37,385 bases of DNA, taken from positions 1 through 37,385 of the forward strand of contig VBEZ01000182.1 in the NCBI GenBank assembly GCA_005882255.1, given 5' to 3'. Every line of letters starts with the position of its first letter. The first letter of the stretch is position 1. This DNA is from Chloroflexota bacterium. GTDB lineage: Bacteria > Chloroflexota > Limnocylindria > P2-11E. A program made the position numbers and the translations under genes. The notes beneath the pieces are model-generated. The model had not been told where the DNA came from. It searched no databases and was given only the letters and a program-made list of their open reading frames with translations. Of this stretch, positions 29,123 to 34,752 are shown one piece after another.

Positions 29123-29673
29123 GCGATATCACCGTGCGCGCGGTCTCGCCCGACCAACATGAGGCGGTGATGCACTACTTCGACATGGTCGCCTATGCGG
29201 ACAATCCGAACTGGTCTCGCTGCTTCTGCATGGAGAGGCTCGTCGAGAACTACGAGTCGAGCACGAAGCAGCAGAACCGCGCGCGACGCAGCGCGCTGAT
29301 CCTCTCGGCGAAAGCCAACGGACTGGTCGCGTACCGGCTCGGCCGCATCGTCGGCTGGTGTCACGCCGCACCGAAGCTCGAGCTACTGAACGTCGAAGGC
29401 ACGAAAGACCCGAAGGTCGGGGCGATCGTGTGTTTCGTCGTCGCGCCGGACCAGCGCAGACAGGGTGTCGCGACGACGCTGCTCGAGGCAGCGCTGGAGC
29501 ACCTGCGGAAGCGAGGCATGACCGCGGTCGAGGCCTACCCGGTGCTCGGCGAGATCGACACAACGCGCTGGAGCCAGGTGAACTACCTCGGTCCGCTCTC
29601 GATGTATCAAAAGGCGGGTTTCGAGGTCGTCGAGACGAACGACGGCTCAGGCGTCGTTCGACGCACCCTGTAA
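29119..29673 (+). CDS. GNAT family N-acetyltransferase
   Basis: A 184-residue GNAT enzyme. The acetyl-CoA-binding strand and loop VGAIVCFVVAPDQRRQGVAT (Q/R-x-x-G-x-A type) are at about residues 95-115, and ALEHLRKRGMTAVEAYP and MYQKAGFEVV are the usual following elements. The early part contains a CFCME segment, which is unusual and could bind a metal or substrate. The substrate is unknown. It overlaps the MOSC gene and ends with TAA, which is part of the -10-like element of the next gene. Confidence 0.88.
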   Translation: MSDITVRAVSPDQHEAVMHYFDMVAYADNPNWSRCFCMERLVENYESSTKQQNRARRSALILSAKANGLVAYRLGRIVGWCHAAPKLELLNVEGTKDPKVGAIVCFVVAPDQRRQGVATTLLEAALEHLRKRGMTAVEAYPVLGEIDTTRWSQVNYLGPLSMYQKAGFEVVETNDGSGVVRRTL

Positions 29674-29676
29674 TCT
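29671..29676 (+). promoter_or_regulatory. -10-like TAATCT overlapping the GNAT stop codon
   Basis: TAATCT contains the stop codon of the GNAT gene and ends 7 bases before ATG 29684. Such a compact arrangement would give the second MOSC gene its own leaderless transcript. Confidence 0.45.
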
Positions 29677-29683
29677 CGATCCG

Positions 29684-30140
29684 AATGAATGCCCGCATCG
29701 TCGGTCTCCATCTTCACGAGCGTCATGGCGAGCATCCGCGCCCCGTCGCGGAGGTGCTCGGGCGCGTCGGCGGCGGGATCGAAGGCGATTCGCACGCGCA
29801 TCGCGCGAGGCGCGCCGTCGTGATCGTCGACCGCTCCGTGTACGAAGGGCTCGGTCTGCGGCCCGGCGACCTGCGCGAACAGCTGACCGTCGAAGGGCTC
29901 CCGGGCGTGACGACGCTCCCGCCGGGCACCGAGATCCGCGTCGGCGGGATCACGCTCCGCGTGAACGGCGAGGCCGCGCCCTGTACGCACATCGGCGAGC
30001 TGGTCGGCAGCGACGACGCCGTGGCCTTCCAAGCAAGCCTGGCGGGACGACGCGGTGCCGAGTGCACCGTGATCGCCGTCGACGGTCCGGCGCGGATCGG
30101 CGACGGCGTCGAGGTCCTGCCTGCACGCGTGGGCGTCTAG
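29684..30140 (+). CDS. Short MOSC-domain protein
   Basis: A 151-residue stand-alone MOSC domain. The typical GIEGDSHAHRARRAVVIVD and LREQLTVEGL occur, and the conserved Cys in APCTHIGELVG stands where the sulfur- or cofactor-binding Cys is found in short MOSC proteins (compare YiiM-like proteins, and MoaC-fused forms). The function may be molybdenum-cofactor handling or detoxification. The ATG is set by the -10-like TAATCT 7 bases upstream; no ribosome binding site is seen. Confidence 0.85.
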
Positions 30141-30188
30141 CGCCATTTCGCGACCGTCCGGGCGCTGTTCCGCAACCTTCGCTTCCGG

Positions 30189-30194
30189 TACAAA
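30189..30194 (+). promoter_or_regulatory. -10-like TACAAA of the glutamate synthase leader
   Basis: TACAAA lies 8 bases before GTG 30203. Like the other elements in this window, it would start transcription at or very near the GTG and give a leaderless leader peptide. Confidence 0.42.
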
Positions 30195-30202
30195 TTCCGG
30201 CA

Positions 30203-30259
30203 GTGACAAAGGTTCGCTCGTCCGCAGCAGCAGCAACCGCCGCAGGAGGTGGAGGCTGA
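30203..30259 (+). CDS. Candidate attenuator leader peptide MTKVRSSAAAATAAGGGG
   Basis: An 18-codon frame. It contains six Ala codons, four Gly codons at the end, and three hydroxy amino acids. No ribosome binding site is needed because a -10-like TACAAA lies 8 bases before the GTG. Its stop codon TGA (30257-30259) overlaps the end of the 5' arm of the proposed antiterminator, and an intrinsic terminator lies 35 bases further on, directly before the glutamate synthase ribosome binding site. Runs of one amino acid in a short frame before a terminator are the mark of transcription attenuation. It could instead be noncoding; no homologue is recognised. Confidence 0.55.
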   Translation: MTKVRSSAAAATAAGGGG

Positions 30260-30327
30260 GTCGCGTCGACTGAGCGAAACGTCGAGACCGACGAAGCCTC
30301 CCAGGACCGGGGGGCTTTTCTGTTTCT
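30251..30327 (+). promoter_or_regulatory. Attenuator: overlapping antiterminator and terminator hairpins
   Basis: The antiterminator is a long hairpin: GGAGGCT (30251-30257) pairs with AGCCTCC (30295-30301), then a GA/GA internal loop, GTCG (30260-30263) with CGAC (30289-30292), and TCGAC (30266-30270) with GTCGA (30281-30285) around a 10-base loop. The terminator re-uses its 3' arm: AAGCCTCCC (30294-30302) pairs with GGGGGGCTT (30309-30317; one G-T pair), loop AGGACC, then a T-rich tail to 30327. Only one can form at a time. A ribosome finishing the leader peptide would cover the 5' arm and favour termination; a ribosome stalled on the Ala codons would leave it free. Confidence 0.6.
30294..30327 (+). 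terminator. Intrinsic terminator in the glutamate synthase leader
   Basis: Stem AAGCCTCCC/GGGGGGCTT (30294-30302 with 30309-30317) with loop AGGACC, followed by TTTTCTGTTTCT. It ends just before the ribosome binding site AAGGAGG (30328-30334) of glutamate synthase, so it must be conditional for that gene to be expressed from upstream. Confidence 0.75.
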
Positions 30328-30339
30328 AAGGAGGTAGCG

Positions 30340-33300
30340 GTGAGCGACGAGCGCGATGCCTGTGCGCTGGTCGGGGTCGCCCGCAAGGACGGTCGGCCTT
30401 CGCGCGACGTGCTCGACGGCGTCCTCCACGGCATGGCCGCGCTCGCGCACCGCTCCGGTCTGGTCGATGGCGAGGGCGACGGTGCCGGCGTGCTCACCGA
30501 CATCCCGCGAGGCCTCTGGGCGAATGTCCTTCGCCTGTCGGGTGGCGACGCGAGCCTCGTTCGCGGCGCGCGCTTTGCCGTCGGTCATCTCTTCATCCCG
30601 CCGGCCGACGTCGACGCCGATCAGGCCGCCGTGCGTCGCAGCCTGGTGCGTCACGGCGTCGAGATCCTCGTCGAGCGCGAGGGCACCACCGACAGCAGCG
30701 CGCTGGGTCCGCGCGGCCGCACCGAGGAGCCGCGCTTCTGGCAGCTCGCGCTTCTCGCGCCGTCGCGCGACGGTCCCGGCTCGCGCGCGCTCTACGAAGC
30801 CGCGGTCGAGATCGAGCGGCTCACCGCGGCCACGGTCGTGAGCCTGTCGCGCCATACCGCGGTCTACAAGCTGCGCGGCGCCGGCCATCAGCTGCCGCGG
30901 TACTTCGCCGATCTCGGCGACCCACGCTTCGCGACCTCGATGGCGTTCGGCCACAACCGCTACGCCACGAACACGAGCACCAGCTTCGATCGCGTTCAGC
31001 CGTTCGCCTCGTTCGCGCACAACGGCGAGATCAACACCATCGGACGCCTGCGCGAAGAAGCGAAGGCGCTGCGCATCCCGCTCTCGCGTTCAGGCAGCGA
31101 CTCGCAGGACGTCGACGCGGTGCTGCGGGGCATGGTCCTCGGCATGCGCCTCACACCGATCGAGGCGATCGAGCTGCTCTTCCCGCCGATCGTCAACGAG
31201 ATCAAGCGCATGCCCGCGGAGCTGCAGGACCTATACATCCAGGCGCGCGCGGCGTTCGGTCCGTTCGCGCAGGGACCGGCCGCGTTCCTCTCGCGCGTCG
31301 GCGACACGTGTCTCTTCGGCGTCGACGCGCTCGGTCTGCGTCCGCTATGGCACGTCGAGACGCCGGACGAGCACGTCTTCGCGAGCGAGCGCGGATTCGT
31401 CCCGCTCGAGCGATACGTCCGCGATCCGTATCCGCTCGGGCCCGGCGAGCGCGTCGGTCTGCGGCGCACGAGCGCGGGGTGGCGCTTTCTCGACCAGGAC
31501 GCGCTGCGGCGCGCGTTCGTCGCGGACCGCACGGCGCGCGGCGTCACTGTGGATGGCATCCGCGAGCGGATCGAGTGCGGCGGTCCGGAGGAAGAGCTCG
31601 AGAGCGTCCGCCGCCCCGGCGCCCGCCGGGAGCCGACGGCGCGCTGGCAGATCGCGACACCGCCCGACGAGCTCGACGACCCCTCACAGCGACGAGAGCA
31701 CCAGTTCGCGTCGCTCGGCTTCGAAGGGGACGACCTGAAGATGGCGCAGTTCGCGGCGCAGACCGCCAACGAGCCGATCGGCTCGCTCGGCTGGGACGGG
31801 CCGCTCGCGGCGCTGTCGGCCGCGCGCCCGAACCTCGCGGACTACTTGCACGAGACGGTCGCGGTCGTGACCAATCCAGCGATCGACCGCGAGCGTGAGA
31901 TCGAGCACTTCTCGACGCGCGCGCTCCTCGGCCCGCGCCCGCTGCCGCGCGCGGCCTCGACGCGTGGTCGCGATCGTGGGCGCTGGATCGAGCTGCGCAT
32001 GCCGATCCTTCTCGGCGGTCATGCGCCCGAGACCGGCCTACGCGGTGACGATCATCGGGCGCTCGCGCGGAAGCTCGGGACGTGGATCGTCGAGGACGTC
32101 GTCGTGCAGTTCACCGCGGACGGCGCGCGCGTGCCGGTGATCCTCGAGGCGGACCGCGATTGGGAGGAGCACCCACGCGACGCGCTCGCGCGTCTCGGCG
32201 CGCAAGCCTGTCGCGGCGTGCGCGGTGGCGCGACGCTCGTCGTCGTGCAGGACCGCCACGTCGTCGACGAAGGGCGCGCCTGGCTCGATCCGCTCCTCGT
32301 CGTCGCCGCCGCGCACCGCGCGCTGATCACGCAGCCGTCGCGCAACGGCTCGCTGCGGCGCGAGTGCGCGATCGTCGTGTCGGCGGGCAGTCTCCGCAAC
32401 CTCCACGACCTGATGGTCGCGCTCGCTCTGGGCGCCGACGCGGTGAACCCGTACCTGTTGCTCGAGTACGCGCTGTCGCTCGGCGATCCCGATGCGCTGC
32501 CGAACCTCGTCGAGGCCCTGCGCAAGGGAATGGAGAAGGTGATCTCCACCCTCGGTGTGCACGAGATCCGCGGCTACGGCCGGCAGCTCTCCGCGATCGG
32601 CGTCGCGCCCGAGGTCGCGCGGATGCTGGGCCTTACGACGTTCTGCGCGAGTGACGAGAGCGGCCTGTCGTGGGAGCGCATCGGCGTGGACGGCTTCGAT
32701 CGCGCCACGATGCTGCGCGAGCGGCGACCGGCTCGCATCGAGCCGGTGTTCCGCATCTACCCGCGCGTGTGGAAGGCCGGGCTCGCGGTCGCGAACGGCG
32801 AGCAGCCCTACCGGACGTTCGCGGACAAGCTCGAAGAGTTCGAGCGCACCCATCCGGTCTCCGGGGAGCACGACGCGCCCGTCTACATCTCGTCGATGTC
32901 CTTCGGCTCGCAGGGCGAGACCGCGTATCGCGCGTACGCGGAAGCCATGGCGCGCATGGATCTCCTGTGCATCAACGGCGAAGGCGGCGAGCTGCCCGAT
33001 CTCATCGGCAAGTACCCGCGCAATCGTGGCCAGCAGATCGCCTCCGGCCGCTTCGGCGTGTCGGCGCTGCTCGCGAATTCGTCCAACTACCTCGAGATCA
33101 AGATCGGTCAGGGCGCGAAGCCGGGCGAGGGTGGACATCTTCCCGCGAAGAAGGTCTCGGTGAAGGTCGCGCTCGCGCGCAACGCGCGACCGGGCGTCGA
33201 CCTGATCTCGCCCTCGAACAACCACGACATCTACTCGATCGAGGACCTCGCCCAGGTCGTCCACGAGCTGAAGACCGTCAACCCGCGCGCGCGCGTCGCG

Positions 33301-34752
33301 GTGAAGATCCCCGTGACGCCGGACGTCGGCATCATCGCGTGCGGCATCGCGAAATCGGGCGCCGACATCATCACGCTGTCGGGTTATGACGGCGGAACCG
33401 GCGCCGCGCGGCAGCACGCGCTGCGGCGCGCCGGCCTTCCGGCCGAGATCGGCGTCGCCGAGGCGCACCGCGCGCTCGTCGCGAACGGCCTGCGCGACCA
33501 GGTGCAGGTGTGGTGCGACGGCGGGATGAAGAGCGCGCTCGACGTGGCGAAGATGCTGTGCCTCGGCGCGGACCGCGTCGGGTTCGGGACCATGGCGATG
33601 GTCGCGATCGGCTGCACGATCTGCCGCGGCTGCCAGCTCGACACCTGTCACGTCGGCATCGCGACGCAGATCGCCTCGGCGGTCGAGGCGACGGAGCGCG
33701 GCCTCAAGCGTTTCGAGCCGCAGGAATTCGAGCGAGCCGTGACGAACCTCGTGCGCTTCTTCAGCGCGCTGCGCGACGAGCTCGCGCGCATCACCGCGCT
33801 CCTCGGCGTGTCGTCGACGGAGGAGCTCGTTGGCCGCACCGATCTGCTCGCGCAGGCGCGCGGCCTGGACCGCATCGATCTCTCCGGCCTCCTCGCGCCA
33901 GCGGGTCCGGTGCGGCGGGGCGGCCGCGAGCTGCGCGTGCTCGCCGCGGCGGGCGGACCGAGCGTCGAGGCGCACGCCGGCGACGAGTCCGAGGGCCCAC
34001 GGCTCGGCAGCGAGCATCGGTTCGTCGCGACCGCGACCGCGGGTCAGCTCGCGCGGCAGCGCATCGCCGGTGCTGTCGTCACCGAGCTCGCCTCTTCGTT
34101 CGGACAGGGCTCCGTCGCGGGGAACGGCTTCGGCGCGTATTCGACAGACGGCGTTTCGCTCCGCATCGCCGGCGGCGCGCAGGACGGCGCGGCGAAGACC
34201 GCGCTCGGCGGCACCTTCGCCGTGCTCAAGGCGCGCAACGCGAACGGCGACTTCGTCGACGGCTCGGTGGGGAAATGCTTTGGCTACGGCGCGCAGCGCG
34301 GACGCTTCTACGTGCAGGGCGGCGCGGACGCGCGCGCCGGCATCCGACTGTCGGGGGCCGACGTGTTGTTCGGTGGCGACCTCCGCGGCTTCGCGTTCGA
34401 GTACATGACCGGCGGCCGCGCCGTCGTGCTCGGCGATCCGGGTCGTTGGATCTGCTCGGGCATGAGTGGCGGCGTGGTGTTCCTCCGCCACGAGCCCGCG
34501 CGCGGCCTCGACGAGCGCGGCCTGCGCGACCGTTTCGCGAAGGGCGCGAAGGTGAGCCTGCGGCCGCCCGCATCCGACGAGGACCTCGTCGCGCTGCGCG
34601 ATCTCGTCGGCAGCTACGCGACACTGCTGCACGAGAGCGGGCAGACCGAGACCGCTGCGGCGACACGCGCGCTGCTCGACGACGCTGCGACCCATTTCCG
34701 CGTCGTGCGGCCGGGCGCCGACATCGTGGATCAAACGATCTCGACGGAGTGA
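30340..34752 (+). CDS. gltB: Glutamate synthase large subunit (GltB-type)
   Basis: A 1470-residue protein, the normal length for the large subunit. It makes two glutamates from glutamine and 2-oxoglutarate. Domains in order: class II glutaminase from the nucleophile Cys8 (DACALVGV; a 7-residue propeptide is removed) with GDGAGVLTDIP and FAHNGEINTIGRL; a central linking domain; the FMN/2-oxoglutarate domain (about 770-1130) with SPSNNHDIYSIEDL and SGYDGGTGAA; the 3Fe-4S motif C1092-x5-C1098-x4-C1103; and the C-terminal GXGXG beta-helix domain (about 1220-1400). Unusually for this window it has a strong ribosome binding site, AAGGAGG, 5 bases before GTG. No gltD follows, so the electron donor could be a distant small subunit or ferredoxin. 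Confidence 0.97.
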   Translation: MSDERDACALVGVARKDGRPSRDVLDGVLHGMAALAHRSGLVDGEGDGAGVLTDIPRGLWANVLRLSGGDASLVRGARFAVGHLFIPPADVDADQAAVRRSLVRHGVEILVEREGTTDSSALGPRGRTEEPRFWQLALLAPSRDGPGSRALYEAAVEIERLTAATVVSLSRHTAVYKLRGAGHQLPRYFADLGDPRFATSMAFGHNRYATNTSTSFDRVQPFASFAHNGEINTIGRLREEAKALRIPLSRSGSDSQDVDAVLRGMVLGMRLTPIEAIELLFPPIVNEIKRMPAELQDLYIQARAAFGPFAQGPAAFLSRVGDTCLFGVDALGLRPLWHVETPDEHVFASERGFVPLERYVRDPYPLGPGERVGLRRTSAGWRFLDQDALRRAFVADRTARGVTVDGIRERIECGGPEEELESVRRPGARREPTARWQIATPPDELDDPSQRREHQFASLGFEGDDLKMAQFAAQTANEPIGSLGWDGPLAALSAARPNLADYLHETVAVVTNPAIDREREIEHFSTRALLGPRPLPRAASTRGRDRGRWIELRMPILLGGHAPETGLRGDDHRALARKLGTWIVEDVVVQFTADGARVPVILEADRDWEEHPRDALARLGAQACRGVRGGATLVVVQDRHVVDEGRAWLDPLLVVAAAHRALITQPSRNGSLRRECAIVVSAGSLRNLHDLMVALALGADAVNPYLLLEYALSLGDPDALPNLVEALRKGMEKVISTLGVHEIRGYGRQLSAIGVAPEVARMLGLTTFCASDESGLSWERIGVDGFDRATMLRERRPARIEPVFRIYPRVWKAGLAVANGEQPYRTFADKLEEFERTHPVSGEHDAPVYISSMSFGSQGETAYRAYAEAMARMDLLCINGEGGELPDLIGKYPRNRGQQIASGRFGVSALLANSSNYLEIKIGQGAKPGEGGHLPAKKVSVKVALARNARPGVDLISPSNNHDIYSIEDLAQVVHELKTVNPRARVAVKIPVTPDVGIIACGIAKSGADIITLSGYDGGTGAARQHALRRAGLPAEIGVAEAHRALVANGLRDQVQVWCDGGMKSALDVAKMLCLGADRVGFGTMAMVAIGCTICRGCQLDTCHVGIATQIASAVEATERGLKRFEPQEFERAVTNLVRFFSALRDELARITALLGVSSTEELVGRTDLLAQARGLDRIDLSGLLAPAGPVRRGGRELRVLAAAGGPSVEAHAGDESEGPRLGSEHRFVATATAGQLARQRIAGAVVTELASSFGQGSVAGNGFGAYSTDGVSLRIAGGAQDGAAKTALGGTFAVLKARNANGDFVDGSVGKCFGYGAQRGRFYVQGGADARAGIRLSGADVLFGGDLRGFAFEYMTGGRAVVLGDPGRWICSGMSGGVVFLRHEPARGLDERGLRDRFAKGAKVSLRPPASDEDLVALRDLVGSYATLLHESGQTETAAATRALLDDAATHFRVVRPGADIVDQTISTE

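Follow-up and report, generated by a model that had tools for sequence, protein, structure and literature searches.

The gene gltB in the window, i.e., the whole stretch of 37,385 nucleotides analyzed here, is preceded by a short leader that we read, at a probability of roughly 0.8, as a ribosome-mediated transcription attenuator tuned by the reading speed of Ala codons, chiefly GCA. The anatomy of the leader, its conservation, its codon bias, a computed switch and sister attenuators together form the basis from which we infer how it would work in the cell.

Anatomy of the gltB leader

A MOSC-domain gene lies upstream of the leader, its TAG stop separated by 48 bases from a -10-like hexamer. 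The features of the locus are as follows.

29358-30140: MOSC-domain gene, ending in TAG
30161..30177, + strand: GGCGCTGTTCCGCAACC block in the -35 region, conserved in an alignment of 22 relatives; candidate activator site
30189..30194, + strand: -10-like hexamer TACAAA, 8 nt upstream of the leader GTG (read from the sequence)
30203..30259, + strand: predicted leaderless leader peptide MTKVRSSAAAATAAGGGG, GTG start, 18 sense codons, TGA stop at 30257-30259
30224..30235, + strand: regulatory run GCA GCA GCA GCA (four Ala), from Ala and GCA enrichment
30231..30258, + strand: protector (1:2) hairpin, CAGC/GCUG and CCGCC/GGUGG, from the leader fold
30251..30257, + strand: antiterminator 5' arm (region 2), GGAGGCT, overlapping the end of the frame as far as the T of its stop codon (folding)
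30260..30292, + strand: inner antiterminator stems GUCG/CGAC and UCGAC/GUCGA (folding)
30293..30318, + strand: intrinsic terminator hairpin (regions 3:4; folding and covariation)
30295..30301, + strand: shared arm AGCCUCC (region 3), the partner of either 30251-30257 or the 3' arm of the terminator
30316..30327, + strand: T-tract TTTTCTGTTTCT (read from the sequence)
30328..30335, + strand: gltB Shine-Dalgarno sequence AAGGAGGT (read from the sequence)
30340..34752, + strand: gltB, glutamate synthase large subunit, GTG start (Pfam)

The product of gltB carries all four Pfam domains of the glutamate synthase large subunit (GATase_2, Glu_syn_central, Glu_synthase and GXGXG). No Shine-Dalgarno sequence precedes the leader GTG in the window, and the same generally holds for the relatives, in nearly all of which a promoter alignment shows a TAnnnT/TACAMA box about 7-10 nt 5' of the leader start. 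The leader frame is leaderless if the TACAAA promoter is the one used. Repeats resembling GTCAC-N6-GCAAC, at 30147-30177 of the window and in the same region of the 22 relatives, overlap the -35 region of the gltB promoter. They resemble direct repeats of the OmpR/GlnR type and suggest a putative activator that may also act on this promoter.

A preliminary description of this DNA had reported a leaderless 18-codon frame with six Ala and four Gly codons, and direct reading reproduces all of its coordinates and features: the Ala codons are the four GCA of the run, GCC at 30239 and GCA at 30242. The T-tract likewise lies directly 5' of the gltB ribosome-binding site, as described. Folding bears out the two mutually exclusive hairpins proposed to share 30295-30301, along with a 16-pair antiterminator (7+4+5) whose 5' arm reaches the leader stop. 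In it, GGAGGCT (30251-30257) pairs with AGCCTCC (30295-30301), followed by the GTCG/CGAC and TCGAC/GTCGA stems, with tandem GA/GA mismatches at 30258-59 and 30293-94. The terminator stem (30293-30302 with 30309-30318) encloses the loop AGGACC, is followed by the tail TTTTCTGTTTCT and has a dG of -16.8. The fold of the region beats 196 of 200 shuffles (z -2.4).

Conservation of the leader across the order

A whole-genome search recovered gltB orthologs from the same family, with 61-92% identity over the N-terminal stretch, and one further ortholog from another family of the order. Upstream sequence suffices in 24 of these gltB genes, and the leader is present in 23 of them, which supports the proposed leader-peptide attenuation of gltB. 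Twenty-two leaders, from genomes spanning eight genera and two families, were analyzed in detail; the 23rd lies at a contig end and was found by a covariance model. All 22 keep an in-frame start, a stop and Ala codons, so that the frame passes the comparison with relatives proposed earlier; it is this conservation that raises the arrangement above chance. The frames run from ATG or GTG to the stop over 16-22 codons and contain an Ala run of two to five codons, two leaders having runs of just two. Within the run GCA, GCG, GCC and GCT interchange among relatives, the run being preserved as codons.

The end of the frame is conserved in another manner. The GGGG C-terminus is confined to the genus of the window, and relatives end in SEDEA, SEDGA, EVRG or EDIA. 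Although these residues vary by genus, the nucleotides GGAGG..GAGGCY-stop-GTCGCG are preserved, so the end of the frame is accounted for by RNA pairing, with the Gly codons as a by-product. Of the Ala/Gly signal proposed in the preliminary description, glycine is thus ruled out, its run not being conserved whereas the underlying nucleotides are, and alanine stays as the candidate signal, with conserved codons and a GCA bias.

The only relative without a leader is G006, in which gltB starts about 8 nt after a -10-like TAGCGT box and itself seems to be leaderless. In G010 (contig C13, 1700-4046) a gltB-type attenuator with the leader MAQVAISSAKSTDAGAPAGGA precedes an rlmN-like gene; the stop of that gene and the start of a distant, 37% identical gltB overlap. 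This attenuator may have outlived the replacement of its gene. No leader was found before gltB at five loci inspected in other families of the class, where two weak model matches occur besides, nor before the 46% identical gltB of Thermoflexus. The gltB version of the attenuator was seen in the order of the window only, and weaker model matches elsewhere in the phylum are not at gltB. Those matches, two loci in each of two families, are similar attenuators before ilvB (leader MSQPAGVVVLSLISSLIIKGLLPFGRD) and before a methyltransferase-like gene (leader MASFFPTMTTSPAPAGAPRRGAEGRS).

Codon usage in the Ala run

Ala accounts for 121 of the 377 codons in the 22 leaders (32%), in comparison to 13.8% in the gltB stretches downstream. 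GCA makes up 63 of these 121 Ala codons (52%) vs 56 of 2168 (2.6%) in the following gltB stretches (odds ratio 41, p 1.6e-55), and only one of the 190 Ala codons in the gltB of the window is GCA. In 37 other leaders of the lineage, most of them branched-chain leaders, GCA is found at only 3 of 82 Ala codons; there, the rare codons CTT (36% vs 6% of Leu) and ATT (19% vs 3% of Ile) are enriched instead. The excess of GCA in gltB leaders and of CTT and ATT in branched-chain leaders indicates that rare codons are enriched where they are predicted to be regulatory. According to theory, codon bias in leaders favors whichever codon responds most strongly to supply in its rate of reading, codon rarity by itself not being the rule (PMC1183508). 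The tRNA genes read in one relative include none for tRNA-Ala(UGC), which is no proof of its absence as this genome is incomplete.

Pairing of the switch arms

The terminator pairs are kept in 93% of alignment cells, and their covariation score was matched by only one of 500 shuffles. The antiterminator pairs are kept in 87% of cells vs 33-47% when the arms are slid, and three of them show changes on both sides. Of the compensatory changes sought in both hairpins, those of the terminator are therefore present, whereas covariation of the antiterminator is not above column shuffles, also in a structure-guided alignment, mainly because its arms hardly vary. Swapping arms between relatives weakens both hairpins: own arms pair better than swapped ones in the antiterminator (-23.7 vs -21.8, permutation p 5e-5) and in the terminator (-21.1 vs -18.4, permutation p 5e-5 or below), in a permutation test that ignores the relatedness of the genomes. 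A longest-helix shuffle of the arm composition is a weak test here, as the arms are G-rich.

Computed switching and proposed mechanism

The comparison of minimum free energy folds with and without a masked 5' arm, suggested in the preliminary description, does not discriminate between the two states. The full-length leader always folds with the terminator, and the same is true of E. coli trpL, which renders equilibrium folding uninformative as a test. The switch must consequently be kinetic and act during transcription, as in trpL.

The 22 leaders were folded as nascent transcripts, ending after region 3, with the footprint of the ribosome masked. A ribosome placed on the first or the second Ala codon leaves an expected number of at least four outer antiterminator pairs in 22/22 leaders, and with the ribosome at the stop codon the antiterminator forms in 0/22, a consequence of geometry since the footprint covers the arm. 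The earlier proposal that stalling favors readthrough and a terminating ribosome favors termination is in line with this outcome. For the window, the expected number of antiterminator pairs is 6.7 and 7.2 with the ribosome on Ala, 0.0 at the stop and 0.0 without a ribosome, the last value because the arm is sequestered in the 1:2 hairpin (30231-30258). This protector hairpin is not universal, as 12/22 relatives could still form the antiterminator when no ribosome is present. E. coli trpL, subjected to the same masking, gave the textbook result with the same pattern as the gltB leaders.

In the mechanism that we propose, transcription would start at or just 5' of the GTG and a ribosome would load on the leader immediately. 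With plentiful Ala-tRNA for GCA, the ribosome would reach the stop and cover region 2 (30251-30257), so that region 3 would pair with region 4 and transcription would end in the T-tract. When this Ala-tRNA runs short, the ribosome would stall on the Ala run and leave region 2 free; the 2:3 antiterminator would then form before region 4 is made, and gltB would be transcribed. If no ribosome is present, the 1:2 hairpin would hide region 2 in the genome of the window and favor termination.

Sister attenuators in the same genomes

Related attenuators were sought with a terminator pattern and a covariance model, the genes being named by NCBIfam/Pfam and aspartokinase from its N-terminal sequence. 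The same genomes contain leaders with Leu/Ile/Val codons and the same anatomy before ilvE, ilvB and related TPP enzymes, leaders with Thr codons before asd and aspartokinase, a Leu/Ile/Pro leader before a PLP aminotransferase, and further attenuators before PucR-type regulators. The Thr and branched-chain codons fit the pathways of their genes, so that Ala is likely to be the signal at gltB. Threonine synthase attenuators have leaders with Met, Pro and Ile codons (e.g., MSMSMAS and PPMPIAPMPG), not Thr runs; six such loci belong to the same family. A terminator arm GCCUCCC/GGGAGGC is common to the lineage-wide leaderless set, for which nine loci were recorded. The system that had been described as a candidate undescribed one is accordingly not isolated, and belongs to a lineage-wide set of leaderless leader-peptide attenuators; no published report of this set was found in the literature searched.

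Alternative explanations

The Ala run can also be read in another frame. GCAGCAGCA read in the +1 frame gives CAG codons, with QQQQ in the window and in one relative, and glutamine is a substrate of glutamate synthase, which would make glutamine a suitable signal for this glutamine-consuming enzyme. However, the +1 frame contains a stop at 30204-30206 and lacks a start ahead of the run, and the start and stop conserved in all 22 leaders belong to the Ala frame. In six genomes synonymous GCG and GCC codons keep Ala and cut the longest +1 Gln run to one. As these changes break the Gln run while Ala stays, we rejected this reading, which we hold to be very improbable. A general sensor of translation stress, resembling the whiB7/wblC uORF, with antibiotics or low GTP causing readthrough and Ala being incidental, would use the same anatomy, since any stall 5' of region 2 should be answered in this way and rare GCA codons may slow ribosomes anyway. 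The other leaders of the lineage, in contrast, have codons cognate to their own pathways and lack the GCA excess, and Ala codons are kept throughout the order. We consider such a sensor unlikely.

A plain weak terminator, or mere spacing of gltB from its promoter, with a frame arising by chance and no regulation, would agree with the terminator found in every equilibrium fold and with the antiterminator covariation not exceeding shuffles. It would leave the frame, codon bias, arm complementarity and position conserved in 22 genomes, as well as the sister attenuators, to coincidence, and appears extremely improbable. The same two hairpins could be used by a ligand-binding riboswitch or a protein-bound leader, the short frame only keeping the region covered by ribosomes. 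The conserved UAGUCGCG...GCGAC core with its GA mismatches would fit this idea, as would the glutamate-synthase-linked RNA motifs of other lineages (PMC8632094). Conservation sits in the switch arms, however, not in a large aptamer, and no Rfam family matches the window at the gathering threshold, the top sub-threshold match being Phe_leader with 20.7 bits vs 55; the gltD motif may not be included in Rfam. Moreover, a ligand or protein would leave Ala and the GCA bias unexplained, and we give this reading hardly any credence.

Discussion

The gltB leader shares with classical attenuators (E. coli trpL; the thr, his, leu and ilv leaders; actinobacterial trp and ilvB, PMC1262725) a short ORF in the leader that contains a run of regulatory codons, hairpins 1:2, 2:3 and 3:4 that compete with one another, a terminator with a T-tract and a stop codon over region 2, and with trpL also the computed behavior under ribosome masking. 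It differs from them in its leaderless start and its Ala codons, in a lineage outside those surveyed in the cited papers, and in that gltB makes glutamate and not the sensed amino acid; it is usual, although not universal, for the regulated enzymes to make the amino acid that is sensed. The whiB7/wblC attenuator of actinobacteria (PMC13236596, PMC11550727, PMC10727445) also combines a uORF with a terminator and an antiterminator. Unlike the gltB leader, it controls a stress regulator and is induced by antibiotics targeting translation; the gene downstream of the leader in the window is gltB and not a WhiB-type regulator. The alanine starvation response is cited as requiring WhiB7, and the mycobacterial whiB7 uORF is the nearest precedent for alanine in the literature searched.

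Leaderless short ORFs with a run of one amino acid are also known from the mycobacterial poly-cysteine sORF attenuators, which control operon expression (Canestrari 2020, cited in PMC13236596). As portrayed in that citation, they differ from the gltB leader in using cysteine and translation attenuation of cysteine genes, with no link to gltB. The gltD motif and glutamine riboswitches (PMC8632094) are likewise cis-regulatory RNAs 5' of glutamate synthase genes. The gltD motif differs in being a structured RNA with a suspected ligand in Selenomonadales/Veillonellales, and the section on it describes no leader peptide. No attenuator of gltB and no biosynthetic attenuator with an Ala run was found in the literature searched, which covered few subscription papers. 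The mechanism is already known, and a gltB gene preceded by an Ala-run leader is new with respect to the literature searched.

Glutamate synthase is a principal route by which nitrogen enters amino acids, and its control is usually ascribed to DNA-binding regulators. Glutamate, the product of GltB, is not alanine, but serves as its amino donor. As alanine is formed by transamination from glutamate, falling Ala-tRNA could signal that glutamate-derived nitrogen is falling too, and we infer that alanine, as the charge of tRNA-Ala, would be the physiological signal. Alanine dehydrogenase was found in 22 of 28 genomes of the family, so alanine need not derive from glutamate alone. The attenuator probably gauges nitrogen supply via the charging of tRNA-Ala. 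We slightly favor the idea that the whole order gauges its nitrogen status by how far a single minor isoacceptor, the tRNA-Ala that reads GCA, is charged. A leader with a run of rare Ala codons would then open nitrogen entry via GltB, and the sensed amino acid would be a sink of the GltB product rather than the product itself.

Across an order of uncultured bacteria, whether gltB is transcribed appears to depend on the translation of an Ala-run peptide. Alanine, through GCA codons, and gltB would thereby join the amino acids and genes served by attenuation. The leaders of this lineage, with rare synonyms enriched only where they would be regulatory, may serve as a natural test of codon-choice theory, and nitrogen assimilation in these bacteria would be tied to tRNA charging.
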